A stretch of DNA of 64,000 bases. It comes from Lachnospiraceae bacterium (GTDB taxonomy: Bacteria; Bacillota; Clostridia; Lachnospirales; Lachnospiraceae). The notes under the pieces were generated by a model. It had not been told where the DNA came from. It worked only from the letters and a program-made list of their open reading frames with translations, and ran no database searches. This document shows positions 2,603 to 46,518 of this stretch, piece by piece (position 1 is the stretch's first letter; each line of letters begins with the position of its first letter). The DNA lies in the NCBI GenBank assembly GCA_017938315.1, contig JAGBBV010000032.1:1-64000 (forward strand), in the 5' to 3' direction. The translations under genes and the position numbers were made by a program.

Positions 2603-4093
2603 ATGTGTAACAGAGTAGAACAGGATAGAGATTTTGACGTACTGATTATCGGTGCAGGGGTATGCGGAAGTTCCATTGCAAGGGAATTATCCCGAAAGGA
2701 ATTAAAGATAGCAGTACTGGAAAAAGAAACCGATATTTGTGAAGGAACCTCTAAAGCAAACAGCGGAATTGTTCATGCGGGATATGATGCAAAACCGGGC
2801 ACATTGAAAGCAAAGTTAAATGTGCAGGGGAGCCGTATGATGAAACAACTTTCAGAGGAACTGGACTTTGCTTATAGGAAAAACGGTGCCATGGTTCTTT
2901 GCATGGATGAAAAAGACAAAGAAAAGCTGGAAGAATTAAAGCAACGGGGAATTACGAATGGTGTAGAGAAGTTACAGATTCTTGACAGACAGCAGATACT
3001 TAACATGGAGCCTTCTGTTAATCCGGAGGTAGTTAGTGCCCTTTATGCGCCAAGTAGTGCTGTTGTTTGTCCTTTTGAGCTGACCATTGCACTGGCAGAA
3101 AATGCGGCGGTGAATGGGGCGGAGTTCTTTTTATCCACTGAAGTTACAGATGTCATAAAGGAAGGGAAAGGATTTTGTGTAAAGACTTCAAAAGGTGATT
3201 TTTATACAAAAGCAGTCATTAATGCCGCCGGTGTCTATGCGGATAAAATACATAATATGGTAAGTGGAAAAGCAGACCGGATTTCCATTACACCCAGAAA
3301 AGGGGAGTATCTTCTGTACGATAAAGCAGTGGGAAATATGGTGAGTTCCACATTATTTCAATTGCCAACAGCCCTTGGGAAAGGAATTTTAGTAACCCCT
3401 ACGGTGCATGGAAATCTCATTACAGGGCCCACAGCACAGGATTGCGAGGATAAAGATGTGACACCGACGTCACAAGAAGGAATTGCCCAAATACAAAAAA
3501 AGGCTTTGCAGAGCATTGCAAATGTGCCCTCCGGTCAGGTGATTACTTCCTTTGCGGGTTTACGTGCCCATGGAGAGAGTGGAGATTTTATGATCGGACA
3601 GGTAACGGGAGTGCCCGGATTTTTTGACGTGGCAGGGATTGAGTCTCCGGGGCTTAGCTGTGCACCTGCAATCGGTGTGTATGTAGCGGACTTGGTAAAT
3701 GACTATATGCCGGCAGCAGACAAGGCTGGGTTTGTAGCAAAGAGAAAAGGAATCCCTCATATGGCAAACCTGCCTACGGAAGAAAAGCAGAGACTGATTC
3801 TTAGTAATCCGGCTTACGGTAACGTGATATGCAGATGTGAGATGGTGACGGAAGGAGAAATTTTAGATGCCATTTACAGACCCTTAGGCGCCACTACCAC
3901 AGATGGTGTGAAACGCAGAACCAGAGCAGGGATGGGACGTTGCCAGTCAGGCTTTTGCCTGCCCAAGGTCATAGAAATTTTAGCGAGGGAATTAAAGGTA
4001 GAAGAAACCCATATCCGCAAAGCATCGGGAGACTCCTTCTATCTATTAGAAGAAGATTCGCAGCTTTCCTTGGAAGGAGGCGAAGAGATATGA
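2603..4093 (+). CDS. FAD-dependent glycerol-3-phosphate dehydrogenase-like oxidoreductase with C-terminal [2Fe-2S] (BFD-like) domain
   Basis: The 496-residue protein starts with an FAD-binding DVLIIGAGVCGSSIAREL motif and belongs to the GlpA/DAO family that oxidises sn-glycerol-3-phosphate to dihydroxyacetone phosphate. Residues from about 405 form a BFD-like [2Fe-2S] domain with four cysteines in CRC and GRCQSGFC motifs. An AAGAAGG sequence precedes the ATG. It is the first gene of an operon with a second flavoprotein and glycerol kinase, and its stop overlaps the next start (ATGA at 4090-4093), so the two flavoproteins are probably made as a complex. It differs from the oxygen-reducing GlpO in having the iron-sulfur domain. 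The electron acceptor cannot be read from the sequence. Confidence 0.85.
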   Translation: MCNRVEQDRDFDVLIIGAGVCGSSIARELSRKELKIAVLEKETDICEGTSKANSGIVHAGYDAKPGTLKAKLNVQGSRMMKQLSEELDFAYRKNGAMVLCMDEKDKEKLEELKQRGITNGVEKLQILDRQQILNMEPSVNPEVVSALYAPSSAVVCPFELTIALAENAAVNGAEFFLSTEVTDVIKEGKGFCVKTSKGDFYTKAVINAAGVYADKIHNMVSGKADRISITPRKGEYLLYDKAVGNMVSSTLFQLPTALGKGILVTPTVHGNLITGPTAQDCEDKDVTPTSQEGIAQIQKKALQSIANVPSGQVITSFAGLRAHGESGDFMIGQVTGVPGFFDVAGIESPGLSCAPAIGVYVADLVNDYMPAADKAGFVAKRKGIPHMANLPTEEKQRLILSNPAYGNVICRCEMVTEGEILDAIYRPLGATTTDGVKRRTRAGMGRCQSGFCLPKVIEILARELKVEETHIRKASGDSFYLLEEDSQLSLEGGEEI

Positions 4094-5505
4094 AAACAGA
4101 ACTTTTAATTATCGGTGGAGGACCTGCCGGAATGGCAGCAGCGCTTTCTGCATATGAACAGGGAATCCGTGATATTCTCATCGTGGAAAGAGATAGGGAA
4201 CTGGGTGGTATTTTAAATCAGTGTATTCATAACGGCTTCGGGCTTCATACCTTTAAGGAAGAGCTGACCGGACCGGAATATGCCGCAAGGTATGTGGCAC
4301 AAATAGAGGAAAAAGAGATTCCTTGTTTATTAAATACCATGGTAACGGACTTACAGGGAGGAAATCCTTGTAAAGTAACTGCTATGAACAAAGAAAAGGG
4401 TCTCTTTACCATAGAAGCACAGGCGGTTGTTTTGGCTATGGGCTGCCGCGAAAAACCCAGAGGAGCCATGAATATAGCAGGAAGCAGACCTGCCGGAATT
4501 TATGCCGCAGGAACCGCCCAATACTTTGTAAACAGAGAAGGCATGCTTCCGGGAAAAGAGATAGTGATTGTGGGCTCCGGCGACATCGGGCTGATTATGG
4601 CACGAAGAATGACCCTGCAAGGTGCAAAGGTCAAAATGGTGGCGGAGATTATGCCATATTCCGGAGGTCTTCGAAGAAATATCGTCCAGTGTCTGGATGA
4701 CTACGGGATACCTCTTAAATTAAATCATACTGTAGTAGAAATACACGGAAAAGATAGAGTGACGGGAGTTACTGTTGCAAGGGTGGATGAAAACTTAAAA
4801 CCCATTGCAGATAGTGAGGAATTTGTATCCTGTGATACGGTGCTTTTCTCTTGCGGACTCATTCCTGAGAACGAATTGTCCAAGGCAGCAGGGGCGGATA
4901 TGGACAGTGTCACCAAAGGTCCGGTGGTGAATGCCAGATTGCAGACCACGGCAGAAGGCATTTTTGCCTGCGGAAATGTGCTTCATGTACATGACCTGGT
5001 AGATAATGTTTCAAAAGAAGCAAAGCAAGCAGGCTACTACGCTGCAGAATATATCAGAAATAGAGAGAAGGATTTTGGAGAGGTAGTAAGGCCGAAAATT
5101 CCGGAAAAGACCAAGTGTGTATTGCCGGAGGGAAGAGATGCATCAAAGACCCTGATTTGCATTGGATGTCCGGTAGGGTGTCTGATTACAGTGGAAGAGG
5201 GAAAAGACGGGGAACTTTCCATTAAGGGTAATACCTGCAAAAAGGGAGAAAGCTACGCGAGAAGTGAAGTGACAGCACCCAAACGGATGATTACATCTTT
5301 TATAAAAGTGGAAAATGGGACTTCTAAGGTAGTTTCCGTAAAAACAGACGGAGAGATTCCAAAGGATAAAATAAACGCGTGTATGGAAGAGATTAAAAAT
5401 GCCGGCTGTGTTGCACCGGTGTCCGTAGGCGATGTGCTAGTTAAAAACGTGGCCGGAACAGGCATCAATATTGTGGCAACTGCTAATGTTGCCGGAAATA
5501 ACTAA
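4090..5505 (+). CDS. FAD/NAD(P)-binding oxidoreductase fused to a DUF1667 domain
   Basis: The true start is the ATG at 4090, preceded by a GGAGG near 4076 and overlapping the previous stop; it gives 471 residues beginning MKTELLIIGGGPAGMAAAL. Residues 1 to about 345 form a two-dinucleotide-binding flavoprotein, with a second Rossmann motif (EIVIVGSGDIGLIMARR) near residue 155. From about residue 350 the protein continues into a DUF1667 domain with CIGCPVGC and a later CKKGESYARSE cysteine motif. In many Firmicutes DUF1667 is a separate short gene after the two flavoprotein genes; here it is fused. It probably passes electrons from the glycerol-3-phosphate dehydrogenase subunit to a carrier, which is an inference. 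Confidence 0.85.
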   Translation: MKTELLIIGGGPAGMAAALSAYEQGIRDILIVERDRELGGILNQCIHNGFGLHTFKEELTGPEYAARYVAQIEEKEIPCLLNTMVTDLQGGNPCKVTAMNKEKGLFTIEAQAVVLAMGCREKPRGAMNIAGSRPAGIYAAGTAQYFVNREGMLPGKEIVIVGSGDIGLIMARRMTLQGAKVKMVAEIMPYSGGLRRNIVQCLDDYGIPLKLNHTVVEIHGKDRVTGVTVARVDENLKPIADSEEFVSCDTVLFSCGLIPENELSKAAGADMDSVTKGPVVNARLQTTAEGIFACGNVLHVHDLVDNVSKEAKQAGYYAAEYIRNREKDFGEVVRPKIPEKTKCVLPEGRDASKTLICIGCPVGCLITVEEGKDGELSIKGNTCKKGESYARSEVTAPKRMITSFIKVENGTSKVVSVKTDGEIPKDKINACMEEIKNAGCVAPVSVGDVLVKNVAGTGINIVATANVAGNN

Positions 5506-5530
5506 GGAGTAAGTGAAAGAAGGGGTTACA

Positions 5531-7027
5531 ATGAGTAAGTATATCATGGCACTTGATCAGGGAACAACCAGCTCCAGATGCATTCTTTTTGACAAACAGG
5601 GAACCATCTGCAGCATGGCGCAAAAAGAGTTTACCCAGATTTATCCAAAACCCGGTTGGGTAGAGCATAATCCCATGGAAATATGGTCTTCCCAGCTTGC
5701 GGTAGTGATAGAGGCAATGGCCAAAGTGGGAGCAGCACCTTCAGATATCAGCGGGATTGGAATAACCAATCAGAGAGAGACTGCGATTGTCTGGGACAAA
5801 AACACGGGAGAACCGGTTTACAATGCTATTGTATGGCAATGCAGAAGAACAGCAGAAAAGATAGATGAGCTGGTGGATAAGGGATATGGAGAACTGATTA
5901 AAGAGAGAACGGGACTCATTCCTGATGCCTATTTCAGCGGAACCAAAATCGCGTGGATTTTAGATAACGTGCCGGGGGCAAGAGAAAAGGCAGAAAAGGG
6001 ACAACTTCTTTTCGGAACGGTAGACAGCTGGTTAATTTATCATTTGACAAAGGGCAAAGTACATGTGACAGATTATACCAATGCTTCCCGTACCATGATC
6101 TTTGATATTCATAAATTATGCTGGGACAAAGAGTTCCTTGGGATTCTAAATATTCCGGAAAATATGCTTCCTGCTGTAAAGCCATCCAGTTGCATTTACG
6201 GTTACACGGATGCATCTGTATTAGGCGGTGAAATTGCTATTGCAGGAATTGCAGGTGACCAGCAGGCAGCGCTGTTTGGACAATGCTGCTTTGAAAAAGG
6301 GCAGGTAAAGAATACATATGGAACAGGTTGCTTTTTATTGATGAATACAGGAAAAGAAGCAATTACATCCAAAAACGGGCTGCTTACAACCATAGCGGCG
6401 AGTGCCGGTGATACAGTGGAATATGCACTGGAGGGAAGCGTTTTTGTTGCCGGGGCGGCAGTGCAGTGGCTCCGCGATGGGATGCGGATGGTAAAGAGTG
6501 CTTCCCAGACAAGTGAGTATGCCGGAAAGGTATCAGATACCACAGGGGTGTATGTTGTTCCTGCGTTTGCCGGCATGGGAGCGCCTTATTGGGACCCTTA
6601 CGCAAGAGGCACTATAGTAGGCATTACTAGAGGGTGTGAAAAGGAACATTTTATCCGTGCCACGCTGGAATCTATTGCGTATCAGACTTATGATGTATTA
6701 AAAGCCATGGAAGAAGATGTAGGAGTTTCCATTGAAGCGCTGAAGGTGGACGGTGGTGCCAGCGCCAATAATTTTCTGATGCAATTCCAGGCGGATATTT
6801 TAGAGGCTAAAGTGGACAGGCCAAAGTGTATTGAAACAACGGCACTGGGAGCGGCTTACCTTGCGGGACTTGCTACGGGATATTATGATAATAAAGAGGA
6901 TATTTGTATCAATTGGCAGCTTGATAAACAATTCAATTCTAGCATGGATAAAGCTGCAAGGGGAAATTTGTTGAAGGGATGGAAAAAGGCTGTGCAGTGT
7001 GCACTTTTATGGGCACAGTCCGAATAA
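5531..7027 (+). CDS. glpK: Glycerol kinase
   Basis: The 498-residue product is a canonical FGGY-family glycerol kinase: [12 protein letters not shown] phosphate-binding segment at the N-terminus, [21 protein letters not shown] and a C-terminal [17 protein letters not shown] segment. It phosphorylates glycerol to sn-glycerol-3-phosphate in the cytoplasm, feeding the two flavoproteins encoded just upstream. An in-frame GTG at 5513 would add six residues, but the ATG at 5531 has a GAAGGGG at proper distance and gives the normal family length. No glycerol facilitator gene is present nearby, so uptake must be encoded elsewhere. Confidence 0.96.
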
Positions 7028-38257: not shown

Positions 38258-38286
38258 AAAACGCACAGCCGAGCTGTGCGTTTTGT
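38258..38286 (+). terminator. Intrinsic terminator after the radical SAM gene
   Basis: AAAACGCACAG (38258-38268) pairs with CTGTGCGTTTT (38274-38284) across a CCGAG loop; the right arm supplies the T run. Confidence 0.9.
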
Positions 38287-38327
38287 GTTTGGTTACAATA
38301 CCATAACATATGCGAATGCGGGTTGCT

Positions 38328-38355
38328 TTCAAAATAATTAGAAATGAATTATAAT
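38328..38355 (+). promoter_or_regulatory. Promoter of the HTH-GpsA fusion gene
   Basis: TTCAAA (38328-38333) and TATAAT (38350-38355) are 16 bp apart and lie directly before the GGAGG of the gene, giving a very short leader. Confidence 0.5.
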
Positions 38356-38373
38356 AGGTACGGAGGTAATGAT

Positions 38374-39591
38374 ATGAACAGCATAGAAATCGGTGAATAC
38401 TTATCCGGCCTTAGGAAATATTATAAAATTACACAAGGTGAATTAGCGAGTAGATTAGGTGTTACCAGGCAGTCTGTTTCGAAGTGGGAAACCGGAGCTG
38501 CAATTCCGGATATAGAGATATTGATGAAACTGTCAGAAATTTATGGAATTTCTATTAATGATATTTTAAAGGCAGACATATCTAAAATTAAGTATCAAAA
38601 GGAGATTGTGTTTCCTGATGAAAAGAAAAAAACAAAAAATATTTTTGTAATCGGTTGTGGCCGTTGGGGTAGTTTTATTGCATGGTATTTAAATAGAATA
38701 GGGCATAATGTGGTTTTGTATGGCAGGGAAGAATCTGCCAATATGAAACGTTTGCTTACAAAAAGAGAAAATGAATATTTGAAATTACCGGATAGTATTT
38801 GCTTGGTTACAGATTATCAAAAAGTAGAAGAAGCAGATTATATTATAGTTTCTGTGGCAGCACAGCATTTGCAGGATGTGATGAATGTACTGGCAGTGAT
38901 GGGCATTAAGAATAAAAGTATAATCCTTTGTATGAAAGGGATTGAGATAGAAACAGGAAGACGGTTATCACAAGTAGCTTCCGACAGCTTGGAACATAGT
39001 AATCATGTGGCGGTATGGTTAGGACCGGGACATGTAAAGGAATTCTATAGAGGTATTCCCAACTGCATGGTGATAGATAGCAATGACGAATTGGTGAAGG
39101 ATGAATTAATCCGCAGTTTTTCCAGTGATTTAATAAGGTTTTATTATGGAACGGATTTAATCGGAAATGAAATCGGTGCAGCAGCGAAAAACGTAATCGG
39201 CATAGCAGCAGGTATGCTGGATGGACTTGATTTATCTTCTTTAAAAGGTGCACTTATGGCAAGAGGTACCAGTGAAATTGCAAGATTGATTGTCGCAATG
39301 GGAGGAAAAGGAAGCTCTGTTTATGGATTGTGCCATTTGGGAGATTATGAAGCAACATTATTTTCAGAGCATAGCCATAATCTGGCATACGGAAAATGTG
39401 TGGTACAAGGGAAAGCATTTGATAAACTGGCGGAAGGCTATTATACAGTAAAGGCGATAAGAAATCTGGGGAAAGCTTATGGAGTAGAACTGCCTATTTG
39501 CGAAGCAGTTTACCAGATTTTATATGAAGATGCAAAGCCAAAAGACAGGTTGAAGAAACTTTTTGAAAGAAGTTTGAGAAATGAATATTAG
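38374..39591 (+). CDS. Fusion of an XRE-type helix-turn-helix domain and NAD(P)H-dependent glycerol-3-phosphate dehydrogenase (GpsA)
   Basis: From the ATG at 38374 (GGAGG seven bases upstream) the protein is 405 residues. Residues 5-62 are a Cro/C1-type HTH (LRKYYKITQGELASRLGV, TRQSVSKWETGAAIPDIEIL). After a linker, residues 92 onward form a complete GpsA: the Rossmann motif VIGCGRWGSFIAWYLNRIGH, a substrate region CMKGIEIETG, the catalytic lysine in AAAKNVIGIAAGMLDGLDL near residue 272, and KGALMARGTSEIARLI. Normal GpsA proteins (about 330 residues) lack a DNA-binding domain. The enzyme makes glycerol-3-phosphate for phospholipids, so the fusion may be a metabolite- or redox-responsive regulator. 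Confidence 0.9.
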   Translation: MNSIEIGEYLSGLRKYYKITQGELASRLGVTRQSVSKWETGAAIPDIEILMKLSEIYGISINDILKADISKIKYQKEIVFPDEKKKTKNIFVIGCGRWGSFIAWYLNRIGHNVVLYGREESANMKRLLTKRENEYLKLPDSICLVTDYQKVEEADYIIVSVAAQHLQDVMNVLAVMGIKNKSIILCMKGIEIETGRRLSQVASDSLEHSNHVAVWLGPGHVKEFYRGIPNCMVIDSNDELVKDELIRSFSSDLIRFYYGTDLIGNEIGAAAKNVIGIAAGMLDGLDLSSLKGALMARGTSEIARLIVAMGGKGSSVYGLCHLGDYEATLFSEHSHNLAYGKCVVQGKAFDKLAEGYYTVKAIRNLGKAYGVELPICEAVYQILYEDAKPKDRLKKLFERSLRNEY

Positions 39592-39642: not shown

Positions 39643-39662
39643 TATTTGACGCGCGTCAAATA
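39643..39662. promoter_or_regulatory. Perfect 20-bp palindrome with CG-rich core
   Basis: TATTTGACGCGCGTCAAATA is fully self-complementary. It lies 51 bp after the HTH-GpsA stop and about 50 bp upstream of the spoVT promoter. It has no T tract, so it is not a normal terminator. It is probably a protein binding site; the half-site TGACGCG resembles but does not equal the RacA consensus half-site TGACGCC. Confidence 0.7.
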
Positions 39663-39821: not shown

Positions 39822-40367
39822 ATGAAGGCAACAGGAATTGTGCGTAGGATAGATGATTTGGGGCGAATTGTTATACCGAAGGAAATAAGACGTACCCTTC
39901 GTATCAGGGAGAGTGACCCCATTGAAATATTTACGGGAAGAGAAGGAGAAATTATCCTTAAGAAATATTCCCCCATCGGGGAGATGAACACTTTTGCAAA
40001 GCAGTATGCGGAAAGCTTATGTCAGGTATCCGGTCATATTGCGGTAATTGCAGACAGAGATCAGGTCATTGCGGTATCCGGCGGAATGAAAGGAATGCTG
40101 GGAAAGGAACTAAGCAAGGAGCTGGAAGATAAAATGAACAACAGGGAAATGGTTATGGCCACAAAGGGGGAAAAAGCATTCATCCCTATTGTGAGGGGCA
40201 CAGCTGATGAATTTTCTCAGGAAGCCATCTGTCCTATTATCTGTGAAGGGGATGTGATTGGTGCGGTAGTACTTATCAGCACATCCGACAAAGGGAAAAT
40301 GGGAGAAGTGGAACAAAAGCTGATGCAGTCAGCAGCAGGATTTCTGGGAAGGCAGATGGAACAATAA
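39822..40367 (+). CDS. spoVT: Stage V sporulation protein T
   Basis: Starting at the ATG at 39822, which gives the conserved MKATGIVRRIDDLGRIVIPK, the protein is 181 residues. Residues 1-50 form the AbrB-like swapped-hairpin DNA-binding domain and residues 55-181 the GAF-like domain that ends in CPIICEGDVIGAVVLIS. SpoVT modulates forespore gene expression after engulfment. The ribosome binding site GGAGG is 13 bases from the start, somewhat far. The sigmaG-like promoter upstream matches the family's timing. An in-frame upstream extension from a TTG is not credible. Confidence 0.95.
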   Translation: MKATGIVRRIDDLGRIVIPKEIRRTLRIRESDPIEIFTGREGEIILKKYSPIGEMNTFAKQYAESLCQVSGHIAVIADRDQVIAVSGGMKGMLGKELSKELEDKMNNREMVMATKGEKAFIPIVRGTADEFSQEAICPIICEGDVIGAVVLISTSDKGKMGEVEQKLMQSAAGFLGRQMEQ

Positions 40368-41025: not shown

Positions 41026-41138
41026 GTAAAGTTCCTATATACCTTTTTCAAAAAGTGTAGTAAAATAATTACTTGCAAAGTGATTGTAATATAACTCCGA
41101 TTGATGTGTTTGTCAAGAAGAGAAGGAGGAGATGTGTT

Positions 41139-42776
41139 ATGAAAAAATTAGGACAAAAGATTTTATGCATGGTGCTTATCACATCTATGCTTGCCGTGAT
41201 GACAGGCTGTGGAGCTTCTACAAAAAAAACAGAGGGAACTTCCCCGGCAGGAAACACTACATCAAACAATGAAAAGATTGTAAATATTGGTATCACAGAT
41301 TCTTTGGGAGGAATGAATCCTCTGACCATTGACCAGTCATGGATTAATGTCTATGCGGTAGGGTTAGAATTTCTTCCTCTTGTACAGCTTGATGCGAAGA
41401 TGAATTTCCAGCCTATGCTGGCAGATTCCATTACCACAGAAGATAATGTGAACTTTACGGTACACATAAACGAGAAAGCTACATGGTCTGACGGCACACC
41501 TGTGACGGCAGCAGACGTGGAATACACGGTACTTAAGCTGGCAAGCCCTACCATTGCCAATGCTACCATGATGTATTATGTATTTGAAGGTGTTGGCGAT
41601 GACGGATTTACGCAGCCGGGAGCTACTTCTATATCCGGCGTAAAAGTAATTGATGAAAAGACCATTCAATTTACTACCAAGTATCCCATTTCCATGGTTA
41701 CTTTCCAGAATTCATATGCTTGCTATTTACGTACTTTACCCAAGCATGTACTTGAGCAGTATAGTGACGAGGAATTAATGACGCTGGATTGGTTCAATCA
41801 TCCCGATGTGGTGAGCGGTCCTTTTATGGTGACAGACTATGATGCAAACCATTACATTTCCTATAAGGCAAACGAAAATTATTTTATGGGTGCGCCCAAG
41901 ATAGAAAAATTAAATTTCAAGATTGTGGACGGAAGTCAGGTATATGCAGGACTTAAATCAGGTGAAATTGATGTGACACATCATACCATGACAGCCATTC
42001 CGCAAGAGGATTATGAAAGTATTGCGGCTCTTGAAAATGTAAATGTAATATACGGTTCTCCCGTAACCAACCAGTCTGTATTTGTACAGACTGCCAATAT
42101 TACAGATGCAAGAGTGCGCCAGGCACTTGTATATGCCATAGACAGAGAGCAGATATTGCAGCAGCTTATGAAGGGACATGGCGAGATTGTAGATGGATTT
42201 TTATCTTCGGCAAGTCCGTATTATGATGAGAACATTACCCCCCTTCCCTATGATCCCGAGAAAGCAAAACAGCTCTTGGCGGAGGCAGGCTGGGATGGAA
42301 CAAAAACCCTTAAGTTCTATGTAAACTCAGGTGACAGCACCTTTGTCAATGCGGCACAGGTGATGGTGGCACAGTGGGCAAATGTAGGAATTAAAGTAGA
42401 AGTACAGACAGTTGATTTGGCTACGCTTATGACCATAGCCGGAACAACAGATTATGATTTCTTCGCAGTGCAGTATACTTACGCACCGGTAGATCCTTAT
42501 CCGGATGTGACATGGCTTCTTAGTGGAGAAGGAAGCTGGACAGGTTATAACAACGCAGATATTGATGCGGCAATGGCAGCATCCCAGGAAACGGATGACA
42601 TGGCAAAGATTAAAGAACAATATACCATTGTAGATAAAAAAATGCAGGAAGACGTAGCTATGTTTTCGGCTTATGTAATCAGTGCACAGGGTGCCGTAAG
42701 CAAGAGAGTGTCCGGGGTAAAAGCCGACGTGTACGGCATGTTTAACGATATTCACAACTGGGAAATCGTGCAGTAA
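41139..42776 (+). CDS. Oligopeptide/dipeptide ABC transporter substrate-binding lipoprotein
   Basis: From the ATG at 41139 (AAGGAGGAG upstream) the protein has 545 residues. It has a lipoprotein signal (LITSMLAVMTGC, cysteine near residue 25) and the family-5 extracellular solute-binding fold (NFTVHINEKATWSDGTPVTAADVEYT, the DARVRQALVYAIDREQI signature). It captures peptides outside the membrane for the permease encoded downstream. The gene is first in a five-gene transporter operon and is followed by a hairpin that may raise its mRNA level over the others. Confidence 0.94.
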   Translation: MKKLGQKILCMVLITSMLAVMTGCGASTKKTEGTSPAGNTTSNNEKIVNIGITDSLGGMNPLTIDQSWINVYAVGLEFLPLVQLDAKMNFQPMLADSITTEDNVNFTVHINEKATWSDGTPVTAADVEYTVLKLASPTIANATMMYYVFEGVGDDGFTQPGATSISGVKVIDEKTIQFTTKYPISMVTFQNSYACYLRTLPKHVLEQYSDEELMTLDWFNHPDVVSGPFMVTDYDANHYISYKANENYFMGAPKIEKLNFKIVDGSQVYAGLKSGEIDVTHHTMTAIPQEDYESIAALENVNVIYGSPVTNQSVFVQTANITDARVRQALVYAIDREQILQQLMKGHGEIVDGFLSSASPYYDENITPLPYDPEKAKQLLAEAGWDGTKTLKFYVNSGDSTFVNAAQVMVAQWANVGIKVEVQTVDLATLMTIAGTTDYDFFAVQYTYAPVDPYPDVTWLLSGEGSWTGYNNADIDAAMAASQETDDMAKIKEQYTIVDKKMQEDVAMFSAYVISAQGAVSKRVSGVKADVYGMFNDIHNWEIVQ

Positions 42777-42800
42777 CAGTAATAGATATAAGGATAAATG

Positions 42801-42839
42801 AAATACCGCAGGGTGACGTAAGGCATCCTGTGGTATTTG
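42801..42839 (+). other. Intercistronic hairpin after the binding-protein gene
   Basis: AAATACCGCAGG pairs with CCTGTGGTATTT around a 15-base loop. There is no T tract. Such hairpins after binding-protein genes commonly stabilise the upstream mRNA segment and so yield more binding protein than ATPase. Confidence 0.65.
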
Positions 42840-42861
42840 TGCAGACAAGTGAGGAAGAGAA

Positions 42862-43842
42862 ATGTCGCATTTGCTTGAGGTTCGTGGACTTACCACTACC
42901 TTTAAAGGAGATTACGGAAAAAATATCAGTGTTGATCATATTGACTTTTCGATAGATAAGGGTGAAATTGTCTGCGTGGTAGGTGAATCCGGCTGCGGGA
43001 AAAGTGTTACTTTTTTATCCGTTATGGGGCTTCTTGGAAGAGGCGGAAGGGTAACAGAAGGGGAGGTTCTTTTTGAAGGAAAGAATCTTCTTGCCATGAC
43101 AGAAAAGGAAATGGATGCGGTCAGAGGCGACCATATGACCATGATTTTCCAGGATCCCCTTACCTCCTTAAATCCTGTATTTACCGTAGGAAACCAGATT
43201 ACGGAAAGTATCCGTACACATATGCATTTATCAAAAGAGGAAGCAAAAAAAAGAGCAATTACACTTCTTGAAAAGGTAGGAATGACGGATCCGGAAAATG
43301 TGATGAAAAAGTATCCCCATACCCTTTCAGGAGGTATGCGACAAAGAGTTATGATTGCTATGGCATTATCCTGCGATCCAAAGCTTTTGATTGCGGACGA
43401 GCCTACTACGGCTCTGGATGTAACGATTCAGGCGCAGATTATGAAATTACTCAAAGAACTGCAGAAAGAAAACGGAATGTCTATGGTGTTAATCACTCAT
43501 GATATGGGTGTGGTTGCCAATATGGCAGACCGCGTTCTGGTGATGTATGCAGGGCAGATTATAGAAGAAGGTCCTGTAAAAGAGATTTTTAAGAATCCAA
43601 GACATCCTTATACGCGTGCACTTCTTGATACCATACCGACTATCCGTGATGATGAAAACAGGAGACTTGTATCCATACCCGGTATGGTACCGGAAAATTA
43701 TGATGACATGAAAGGTTGCCGGTTTGCACCCCGTTGTGCTTACCGCAGGAAAGAATGTGATAATCCGCAGGCTGATTATGAATTTTCAGAAGATCATACG
43801 GCTAAATGTATTGTGATGAAGGAAGGAGGAATTCCTTCATGA
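42862..43842 (+). CDS. Peptide ABC transporter ATP-binding protein (DppD/OppD)
   Basis: The 326-residue protein has Walker [12 protein letters not shown] near residue 40, an ABC signature LSGGMRQRVMIAMALS, Walker B LLIADEPTTALD, and the C-terminal oligopeptide-transporter extension with MKGCRFAPRCAYRRKEC. It powers peptide uptake in a complex with the partner ATPase and two permeases. The start follows a GAGGAAGAG site. Its stop overlaps the next start (ATGA). Confidence 0.95.
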   Translation: MSHLLEVRGLTTTFKGDYGKNISVDHIDFSIDKGEIVCVVGESGCGKSVTFLSVMGLLGRGGRVTEGEVLFEGKNLLAMTEKEMDAVRGDHMTMIFQDPLTSLNPVFTVGNQITESIRTHMHLSKEEAKKRAITLLEKVGMTDPENVMKKYPHTLSGGMRQRVMIAMALSCDPKLLIADEPTTALDVTIQAQIMKLLKELQKENGMSMVLITHDMGVVANMADRVLVMYAGQIIEEGPVKEIFKNPRHPYTRALLDTIPTIRDDENRRLVSIPGMVPENYDDMKGCRFAPRCAYRRKECDNPQADYEFSEDHTAKCIVMKEGGIPS

Positions 43843-44693
43843 GTAGAGAAAATAAAACACCGCTAATTCAGGTAGAAGGCTTAAAGAAATATTATCCTGT
43901 GAAAGGTGGGATTATTCCTCATATCACAGAACATGTCAAAGCAGTGGACGGAGTGAGCTTTTCCATCATGCCAGGTGAGACATTAGGTCTTGTGGGCGAG
44001 TCCGGTTGCGGAAAATCCACCACCGGGAGAGTGCTCATAGGACTTGAAAAGCCTACAGAAGGTACCATTTATTATAAAGGACAGGATATCTCAGGGCTTC
44101 CTAAAAAGCAAATGCAGGAAATACGCACCAATTTGCAGATGGTATTTCAGGATCCGTACTCATCACTAAATCCCAGAAAGCATGTATTTGAGATTTTGGC
44201 ACAGCCTATGCTTTATCATAAAATTGCAAGTAAGGCGGATGTGGAAAAGAAAATTCTTGAGATTTTGGATATGGTGGGATTGTCTAAAAATGTGTTGGGC
44301 AGATATCCCCATGAATTTTCCGGGGGACAGAGACAGCGAATCGGAATAGCCAAGGCTCTTTCCTTAAATCCGGAATTTATTGTGTGCGATGAGCCGGTAA
44401 GTGCCTTGGATGTTTCGGTGCAGGCCCAGATTTTAAACTTGCTAAAAGAATTACAAAAAGAACTGGACCTTACCCTTCTTTTTATAGGACACGGGCTGGG
44501 TGCAGTGAATTATGTCAGTGACAGAATCGCTGTGATGTATATGGGAAAAATCGTGGAGATAGGAAAAGCAAAGGAAATATTTGCACATCCCACTCACCCC
44601 TATACGAGAACTTTGCTTGATGCAGTCCTGGTTCCGGATCCTTCTGAAAGGGAACCTAAATTACAGCAAGAGAAGGAGGGCACTCATGGGTAA
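43839..44693 (+). CDS. Peptide ABC transporter ATP-binding protein (DppF/OppF)
   Basis: The 284-residue protein begins at the ATG overlapping the previous stop, with a GGAAGGAGG upstream. It has Walker [15 protein letters not shown], signature [16 protein letters not shown] and Walker [13 protein letters not shown]. It lacks the cysteine-rich C-terminal extension typical of full-length OppF (about 310-330 residues) and is thus a shortened form. It forms a heterodimer with the upstream ATPase. Its 3' end overlaps the permease gene by eight bases. Confidence 0.94.
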
Positions 44694-45633
44694 ATATATT
44701 TTAAAACGTATCTTGATTGCCATTCCCGTGCTGATAGGCATTACCATTATCGACTATGTCATTATGTGCATTGCAGGCAGTCCTCTGGAAATGTTACAAG
44801 GGCCCAGAGTGTCTGAGGCAGCAGTTGAGGCAAAAGCAATTGCTATGGGACTGGACCAGCCCATTTACGTGCAGTATTTTGTGTGGTTATCCCAGCTGCT
44901 TCAAGGAAATATGGGATATTCCATCCGGTCGTATCAGCCTGTAAGCAGTATGATAGCAGAGCATTTAGGACCTACATTACTCCTTATGGGTGTTTCTTTG
45001 GTGGTGAGTTTGCTAATTGCAATTCCGGCAGGAATTTACAGTGCTGTTCATCAGTATTCTAAAGGAGATTATGCAGTGGTAACTTTTTCCTTTTTGGGAA
45101 GTAGTATCCCCAGCTTTTTTTTGGCACTTTTATTAATCTATATTTTTACGGTAAAGTTAGGAGTTCTTCCATCAAGCGGTATGACAACCCTGGGATCAGA
45201 GGGAGGATTTATGGATGTGGCAAGGCATATGATTATGCCTGTACTGGTCCTTGCCTTCTCTTTGGCAGGCAGCAACATCAGATATATTAGAAGTGCGGTG
45301 CTTGAAATTTTGCAGCAGGATTATCTGCGTACTGCAAAAGCAAAGGGAATTGGCAGATTCAAAGTGATTTACAAGCATGCACTGAGAAATGCACTTGTCC
45401 CTATTGTGACGGTTATCGGTATGCAGATTCCTATGTTATTCGGCGGAGCAGTGATTATTGAGCAGGTGTTTTCCTGGCCGGGACTAGGCCTTATGACCAT
45501 GAGTGCCATCACAGCAAGAGATTATCCGGTGATTATGGGAGTATGCCTGCTTTCGGCAGTGGTTGTACTTTTAGCTAATCTGGTAACGGATATTGTGTAT
45601 GCAGTGGTGGATCCAACGATTTCGCTGGATTAG
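44686..45633 (+). CDS. Peptide ABC transporter permease (DppB/OppB)
   Basis: From the ATG at 44686 (AAGGAGG upstream), the protein has 315 residues and six transmembrane helices, starting with [20 protein letters not shown]. The LRTAKAKGIGRFKVIYKHALRNALVPIV EAA loop is typical for contact with the ATPases. Upstream in-frame codons lie within the preceding ATPase gene and are not used. It pairs with the permease that begins nine bases after its stop. Confidence 0.95.
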   Translation: MGKYILKRILIAIPVLIGITIIDYVIMCIAGSPLEMLQGPRVSEAAVEAKAIAMGLDQPIYVQYFVWLSQLLQGNMGYSIRSYQPVSSMIAEHLGPTLLLMGVSLVVSLLIAIPAGIYSAVHQYSKGDYAVVTFSFLGSSIPSFFLALLLIYIFTVKLGVLPSSGMTTLGSEGGFMDVARHMIMPVLVLAFSLAGSNIRYIRSAVLEILQQDYLRTAKAKGIGRFKVIYKHALRNALVPIVTVIGMQIPMLFGGAVIIEQVFSWPGLGLMTMSAITARDYPVIMGVCLLSAVVVLLANLVTDIVYAVVDPTISLD

Positions 45634-45642
45634 GAGAGGCAT

Positions 45643-46518
45643 ATGAAGAAAAGAAATAAAGCAGACATTACAAGTGAAAGTTATTTGCAAACGGTATTTC
45701 GCCGTTTTAAACGTCATAAACTTGCTATGGGTAGCCTGATTGTAGTTATTTTATTGGGAGGAGCTGCACTGTTTGCGCCGGTGATAGCACCGTATCATCC
45801 TGATGAAATTGTAGGTACATTCAGCGGTGCACCGAGTATGGAACACCTCCTTGGTACGGACCAAATAGGAAGGGATGTGCTCAGCAGATTATTATACGCA
45901 ACACGGATTTCCCTTTTGGTTGGTATTATGGCTACATTAATATCTACTGTAGTGGGAGTCATTCTCGGACTGATTGCAGGATATTTTGGTGGCGTGGCAG
46001 ATATGATTATTATGCGTTTTACGGATATGGTTATGTCATTTCCCTATATATTACTTGTACTTGTGGCGGCGGCTATTTTTAAACCGGGGCTTTGGAGTAT
46101 CATTTTGATTTTGGGATTTGTGGATTGGCCGGGAATAGCCAGACTGGTCCGTGGAAATGTTTTAAACTTAAGGGAAACCAATTTTATTAAAGGAAATATC
46201 GTGGCGGGTATGCCACTTAGACATATTTTGTTTTCGGAGATTTTACCGAATACGGTAGCCCCCATTTTGGTATATGCTACGTCTGTGCTGGCACTTTCCA
46301 TGCTGGATGAAGCAGCACTAAGCTTTCTCGGTATGGGTGTGCAACCACCTACCGCGAGTCTTGGAAATATGTTAAACGGGGCGGAGTCCTTAACGGTGCT
46401 TACGAAACAGCCGTGGCTCTGGATTCCCGCAGGTGTGGTGATTGTGGTGCTGGTGATGGCGATTAACTTTATCGGGGATGCGCTTAGGGATGCGCTGGAT
46501 CCCAACAGTAAGAGTTAA
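45643..46518 (+). CDS. Peptide ABC transporter permease (DppC/OppC)
   Basis: The 291-residue protein has an N-terminal helix after a basic start (FRRFKRHKLAMGSLIVVI), a conserved HLLGTDQIGRDVLSRLLYATRISL region, and the permease loop around RETNFIKGNIVAGMPLRHI. It completes the transporter. A GGAG sits before the ATG. A long inverted repeat follows the stop codon and may end or process the transcript. Confidence 0.95.
   Translation: MKKRNKADITSESYLQTVFRRFKRHKLAMGSLIVVILLGGAALFAPVIAPYHPDEIVGTFSGAPSMEHLLGTDQIGRDVLSRLLYATRISLLVGIMATLISTVVGVILGLIAGYFGGVADMIIMRFTDMVMSFPYILLVLVAAAIFKPGLWSIILILGFVDWPGIARLVRGNVLNLRETNFIKGNIVAGMPLRHILFSEILPNTVAPILVYATSVLALSMLDEAALSFLGMGVQPPTASLGNMLNGAESLTVLTKQPWLWIPAGVVIVVLVMAINFIGDALRDALDPNSKS

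Follow-up and report, generated by a model that had tools for sequence, protein, structure and literature searches.

A conserved HTH-GpsA fusion gene with an operator-like element in its own promoter

Glycerol-3-phosphate dehydrogenase links glycolysis, NADH balance and the synthesis of membrane lipids. Metabolic enzymes that also act on transcription, the trigger enzymes, are few; the available text of PMC8249747 lists five for Escherichia coli, describes PutA as binding only the putA/putP spacer, and includes as trigger enzymes BirA and NadR, which are multi-target regulators. The glycerophosphodiesterase GlpQ of Mycoplasma pneumoniae was proposed, in the accessible part of PMC3178575, to be a trigger enzyme reporting on glycerol-3-phosphate (G3P). 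Our literature search, with most subscription papers outside its scope, returned no report of an HTH-GpsA fusion or of a glycerol-3-phosphate dehydrogenase acting as a trigger enzyme, and PMC7641849 concerns, as far as its available text goes, an alpha-proteobacterial operon and not such a fusion. Trigger enzymes being already known as a class, what is new here is an element, WWTGC-N8-RTTGCT, in the promoters of genes that encode HTH-GpsA fusions.

The fusion gene and its occurrence

The gene lies in bases 1-64000 of contig C28 (the window) in a genome of 2.63 Mb, and its features are collected in Table 1. A reading of the letters alone (the sequence-only reading) had placed an XRE-type HTH before GpsA in a single frame, and this was borne out by the open reading frame and by three Pfam domains over cut-off, namely HTH_3 (PF01381, residues 17-63, E 1.4e-13, 51.1 bits vs a cut-off of 23), NAD_Gly3P_dh_N (PF01210, residues 90-239, E 2e-26, 93.3 bits vs 23.1) and NAD_Gly3P_dh_C (PF07479, residues 261-392, E 1.2e-37, 129.7 bits vs 25). 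An alternative longer start, ATG 38344, is located upstream of the likely transcription start, which is predicted at about 38362.

Table 1. Positions of the fusion gene, its domains and its putative expression signals in the window
Feature	Position	Strand	Source
Terminator-like stem-loop, 12 pairs, 3' of the upstream radical-SAM gene	38258..38284	+	terminator scan
Operator-like element TATGCGAATGCGGGTTGCT, consensus WWTGC-N8-RTTGCT	38309..38327	+	comparison of fusion upstreams
Promoter-like TTCAAA-16-TATAAT; -10 box 38350-38355	38328..38355	+	promoter scan
Ribosome-binding site GGAGG, 7 bases 5' of ATG 38374	38362..38366	+	sequence
HTH-GpsA fusion gene, 405 aa (P0001)	38374..39591	+	ORF list, Pfam
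XRE/HTH_3 domain, residues 1-66	38374..38571	+	Pfam
Linker, residues 67-87	38572..38634	+	alignment of fusions
NAD_Gly3P_dh_N, Rossmann domain with GCGRWG, K188	38641..39090	+	Pfam, alignment
NAD_Gly3P_dh_C: K272, N273, D324, T328, N336 kept; H335, H321, Y325	39154..39549	+	Pfam, alignment

A survey of HTH-GpsA fusions found 10 others besides P0001 at 60-76% identity, one in the genus (G412) and nine in GTDB contigs (L084-L091, L093), giving 11 in all. As HTH, linker and GpsA recur together in 10 other genomes, the fusion is no sequencing join, and a frame error uniting two genes was ruled out; the HTH-GpsA fusion is real and evolutionarily conserved. Nine of the 11 fusions have a QKE(I/L)VFP stretch within the linker; L090 and L091 do not. 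Most carrier genomes are MAGs assigned to Lachnospiraceae and derive from gut samples of deer and other ruminants.

Two of the 10 further fusions are incomplete. The one of the sister species G412 (L035) is cut near the contig end and has upstream an integrase-like ORF, named by reading, which gave no Pfam match. In L093 (3001-4014, G1130) the frame breaks near residue 309, in the C-terminal domain, leaving two PF07479 fragments, so that this copy is either a pseudogene or an assembly error. The neighbourhoods of the nine GTDB fusion loci differ, except that a gene read as SpoVAC-like lies upstream in each of L086-L088 and that L086 and L087 share further genes.

The genome samples used to trace relatives overlap. 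Among the matches listed for 397 family genomes (own included), close relatives of the GpsA part were present in 13 others at 57-72% identity, their alignments beginning at about residue 77-89 without an HTH, and the remaining matches were canonical-like (32-39% identity). The genus sample (37 genomes, own included) held one other fusion, that of G412, 67% identical over residues 1-235, together with 12 HTH-only matches to the fusion HTH at 48-57% identity. In the order sample (392 genomes) a match at E 1e-55 was obtained in 11 others, two of which were already among the known relatives, and in the class sample (391 genomes) 40 others matched; the same enzyme group is scattered through both, and no HTH was found there. 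Five class matches with long open frames (including G763 and G1083) were fetched and proved to be neither fusions nor carriers of the element described below, and a weak HTH match in L259 (E 0.013) is located inside the GpsA gene itself. The GTDB contig collection yielded its nine fusions, all matching from residue 1, among the best 80 of 255 relatives. An origin from mobile elements was rejected, the plasmid and phage matches being 30-48% identical among the 15 listed of 77 plasmid records and of 24 phage records; these lack the HTH, since their alignments begin at residue 60 or later.

Among 10 fusions, mean pairwise identity was 74% in the HTH, 65% in the Rossmann part and 59% in the linker. 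The corresponding median dN/dS values were 0.09, 0.13 and 0.20, obtained with L091 left out from 25, 20 and 18 usable pairs of 45, respectively, codon counts being rough at such distances. Judged by these ratios, the HTH is evidently under strong purifying selection and in use. One property of a trigger enzyme, an enzyme and a DNA-binding domain kept in one protein through evolution, is thus found in the 11 fusions with their low HTH dN/dS.

The enzyme part and the second gpsA

Residues of the enzyme part were placed by alignment to 1z82 and 1evy, and human numbering was mapped by motif, not by structure. The Rossmann glycine motif and catalytic lysine, which the sequence-only reading had held to be retained, are indeed present: alongside GCGRWG, the residues K188, K272, N273, D324, T328 and N336, equivalent to human K120, K204, N205, D260, T264 and N270, are invariant in 47 of 47 aligned rows, the roles of the human residues being taken from the available text of PMC12874384. 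According to the same text, R269 of human GPDH pairs with the substrate phosphodianion, and the R269A exchange lowers kcat 41,000-fold (PMC12874384). The fusion has no arginine equivalent to R269 and carries H335 in its place, a change of the DHAP-phosphate arginine that had escaped the earlier reading. When 113 group loci were scanned, duplicates of one locus not being removed, all but L093 were readable, and the SRN-motif Arg position (335) held His in 98, Gln in 10 and Asn in 4 of the 112, versus Arg in 38/38 canonical proteins. The GLxHxGDY stretch showed a new His (H321) in 112/112, with Tyr at position 325 in 111 and Phe in one. Of the NCBIfam equivalog models, none was over cut-off among the 25 families listed, the closest, NF000941, giving 205-217 bits in six group proteins against a cut-off of 423; the window protein passed two GpsA subfamily models, NF000942 (258.3 bits, cut-off 257) and NF000940 (211.9, cut-off 202). 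By its residues, then, the group is to be placed as a separate GpsA subfamily in which the catalytic lysines are kept and the DHAP-phosphate arginine is lost. Because of this loss, kinetics and substrate of the fusion are not to be taken for granted.

It is conceivable that the enzyme acts on another ketone or aldehyde phosphate, H321 and H335 reshaping the pocket and the HTH reporting on that substrate. The group-specific H321 and Y325, the His, Gln or Asn found at 335 where canonical proteins have only Arg, and the NF000941 scores far below cut-off would agree with this, but the window protein passes both subfamily models and a source of G3P is needed wherever the group stands alone (see below), and we consider such a change of substrate quite unlikely. 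Instead, the enzyme part, its phosphate-binding site remodelled, would reduce a ketone phosphate resembling DHAP, most probably DHAP itself, which would yield glycerol-3-phosphate.

The genome does have a second, normal gpsA, the presence of which the sequence-only reading had raised as a question. It is on contig C15, immediately behind a gene whose translation reads as plsY-like, scores 195.3 bits for PF07479 against 132.4 for the fusion, and is 33% identical to the latter. Taking more than 185 bits as canonical, and with many genomes being MAGs of unknown completeness, a canonical gpsA accompanies the fusion in 8 of 11 genomes, as compared with 12 of 63 genomes of HTH-less members (Fisher p 0.0008, related genomes not being independent). 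It is absent in G1127, G1128 and G1129. No other PF07479 match was found in G1127 and G1129, and G1128 has two other, divergent PF07479 paralogues; one of them adjoins the fusion (L090), its product of 71.4 bits being encoded at about 2341-2796, directly upstream and on the same strand.

In 50 of 63 genomes (9/13 and 41/50) no PF07479 protein other than the HTH-less member is present, and therefore this branch probably makes glycerol-3-phosphate, as judged from gene content; the nine remaining genomes of the 50-genome set comprise eight with a canonical gpsA and one with a divergent paralogue. G3P could also come from glycerol in genomes that have GpsA2 only, since glycerol kinase was over cut-off in 8 of 9 of these, G360 (86% complete) being without it. 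The same data bear on the idea that the GpsA domain of the fusion is a sensor without useful DHAP turnover, serving a local transcription factor as its redox- or DHAP/G3P-binding domain. Replacement of the phosphate arginine in the whole group and the normal gpsA in most fusion genomes are in its favour; the six invariant catalytic residues, the HTH-less members standing as sole PF07479 protein and the fusion genomes G1127 and G1129 with no other match all speak against it, and we hold it to be unlikely. With the enzyme part taken as catalytic, the fusion would be a conditional isozyme beside the housekeeping gpsA.

In the tree, the enzyme part forms a separate GpsA branch with support of 100/100 versus four canonical rows. 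Among the fusions sit, with starred support, the HTH-less L092 and L006/L095; close by, though less well supported, branch L004/L094, L005/L096 and L097-L100, likewise HTH-less. A single fusion clade was held together in 0% of 200 bootstrap trees, the starred branches forcing at least three changes, and the AU test did not reject one clade of fusions (p 0.095), with the root not fixed; for this reason, loss of the HTH in the nested lineages is only suggested by the tree. The genomes of these nested or near HTH-less loci (G066, G281, G290; G1131-G1136) have no other PF07479 match, which suggests that the HTH is dropped once the enzyme becomes the sole copy. A search for HTH remnants at 11 near HTH-less loci found none in 10, and in L095 two weak matches, with E 0.018 and 0.57, at positions far removed from the gene.

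The fusion promoter and its putative operator

The stem-loop that follows the upstream radical-SAM gene and the promoter-like sequence behind it (Table 1) indicate that the fusion is probably its own transcription unit with its own promoter. Upstream of the fusions we spotted by eye, before counting it, the motif WWTGC-N8-RTTGCT, which occurs in 10 of 11 fusion upstreams as compared with 0.044 expected from dinucleotide shuffles. It was found upstream of 0 of 91 HTH-less relatives, each with at least 200 bases of upstream sequence, 13 of 104 loci having been left out as duplicates, partial or short. In all 10 element-bearing promoters 23 bases lie between the TTGC of the element and the -10 box (TANANT), a distance that stays fixed even in L084, where the leader is longer. 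T9, T19 and A45 are invariant in these promoters, though outside the search pattern. The fusion promoters have a common ancestry, and L086-L088 have an upstream gene in common as well, but conservation of the element is not mere recent ancestry, as mean identity is 71% in the element and 76% in the -10 box versus 35% in the spacer and 31% in the 60 bp further upstream. Element and HTH covary: all 10 fusions with a conserved HTH have the element, and the one without it, L091, has a diverged HTH (22/66 identical to P0001) on a GpsA part with 222/318 identities. A target that travels with the DNA-binding domain, as a trigger enzyme should have, is accordingly seen for this putative operator (10/11 vs 0/91).

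The half-sites read GCNN-N7-TTGC; five of the 10 promoters have them as a perfect GCAA/TTGC inverted repeat. Half-site spacing of this kind is known for XRE dimers. The best -35 match at a spacing of 16-18 bases reaches at most 4/6 in all 10 promoters, and in L003 a fair -35 hexamer directly adjoins the element. Placed in this way, the element would be compatible with either activation or repression.

In order to assess specificity, 10 genomes were searched with fixed-spacing patterns, which sites with other spacing would escape. The full pattern with the -10 box matched the fusion promoter in each genome and 10 other sites in all, compared with one for the backwards-pattern control; eight of these others overlap ORFs of at least 226 aa, a ninth overlaps a doubtful ORF of 77 aa, and the tenth (G1124) is intergenic. 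Without the -10 box, 71 sites were obtained, 10 of them the fusion promoters, and the backwards control gave 9 as against the 61 others. The excess over the control may come from base and codon composition (TGC/TTGC vs CGT/CGTT), and some real further targets could be hidden in it. Of the 61 non-fusion sites, the surroundings of 35 were read; 32 of these sites overlap ORFs, as called by a mechanical caller that took one true fusion promoter (G1122) for coding, and three look intergenic (G1126, G1123, G1128) with no downstream gene in common. The site in G1128 (L251, 784-802) lies shortly upstream of a murD-like gene and has no -10 box at the usual distance. A broader regulon was rejected on the 35 of 61 sites read, most of which are in ORFs.

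In the own genome, the looser pattern found 13 sites, of which 38309 is the only one found to be intergenic and also to have a -10 box coupled to it. Since the 12 others overlap ORFs (11 of at least 244 aa and one doubtful 66-aa ORF) and none has a -10 box in place, the best-supported target is the fusion gene itself. The least probable of the alternatives we weighed, itself quite unlikely, is that some other regulator binds the element, or that the element is a promoter feature of an unusual sort, the fusion HTH acting elsewhere or not on DNA. XRE paralogues could share the site because the fusion HTH is presumably of a common clostridial XRE type, given its 12 HTH-only matches in the genus, and non-fusion matches do exceed the backwards control; against this stand the occurrence of the element with the conserved HTH and its absence with the diverged one and from the HTH-less genes, and the fixed distance to the -10 box even where the leader is longer.

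The sequence-only reading had also seen a glycerol-3-phosphate oxidation operon in the window. It is indeed present at 2603-7027, with a glycerol kinase gene (735.8 bits, over cut-off) and two genes for GlpA/GlpB-like flavoproteins (DAO with Fer2_BFD, and Pyr_redox_2 with DUF1667), but the link drawn from it to the fusion gained no support, as the window contains the element once only, at 38309, and not near the operon. Nor did the perfect 20-bp palindrome TATTTGACGCGCGTCAAATA at 39643-39662, put forward there as a binding site, behave as an operator: it was found in no compared locus of another genome and is unlike the element. The palindrome lies between the fusion and the next gene, a SpoVT-type regulator (39822-40367, SpoVT_C and MazE-like domains), and no terminator-like site was found on the + strand between the two genes. 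Further downstream, at 41073-46518, follows a dipeptide/oligopeptide-type ABC transporter (binding protein, two ATPases and two permeases, by reading).

Proposed function and comparison with known systems

We think it probable that the fusion is a second, self-regulating enzyme of the GpsA family acting via its own promoter, PutA-like in logic. The XRE domain would bind, probably as a dimer, the element at 38309-38327 just upstream of its own -35 region, so that expression of the gene would follow the state of the dehydrogenase fused to it. Presumably the linker relays this ligand state, be it NAD(P)H, DHAP or G3P. Of the trigger-enzyme idea in the sequence-only reading it is the logic that is supported, because the gene's promoter contains an operator-like element and the genome search turned up no second site comparable to it in being coupled to a promoter. 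What the sequences show is the conserved fusion, the selection acting on its HTH, the operator-like element with its rarity, the separate gpsA and the altered active site; that this HTH binds the element, how control runs, what is sensed and that the enzyme part is catalytic is what we infer. A wider proposal, to which we give somewhat less than an even chance, is that a GpsA lineage with a rebuilt phosphate site (Arg to His, Gln or Asn, plus the new His) took over G3P synthesis in many Clostridia, that one branch became a one-gene feedback circuit, at once enzyme, sensor and repressor or activator, on a single promoter, its own, and that loss of HTH and operator goes with promotion to the only housekeeping copy.

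The explicit operator prediction makes the idea of self-regulation quickly testable, and a widespread clostridial GpsA subfamily without the arginine held central to catalysis would be a natural test of alternative chemistry.

Among described systems, PutA, a trigger enzyme of E. coli, resembles the fusion in uniting proline dehydrogenase and a DNA-binding domain in one chain, and its single target is what the one promoter-coupled site would predict for the fusion. It differs in its enzyme and in its DNA-binding fold, which is ribbon-helix-helix, and unlike the situation at putA/putP no transporter gene lies directly beside the fusion, for which binding is putative. BirA and NadR have an N-terminal HTH joined to a metabolic enzyme, as in the fusion, and their enzyme families are unrelated to GpsA. 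GlpQ, too, acts in G3P metabolism and has been proposed to control transcription, but belongs to another enzyme family and has several targets, and no fused DNA-binding domain is described for it in the accessible part of PMC3178575. Canonical GpsA (PF01210 and PF07479; solved as 1z82, 1evy and 3k96) shares with the fusion the Rossmann motif and the catalytic Lys, Asn, Asp and Thr, whereas in the fusion the phosphate-gripping Arg is replaced by His and an HTH has been added.
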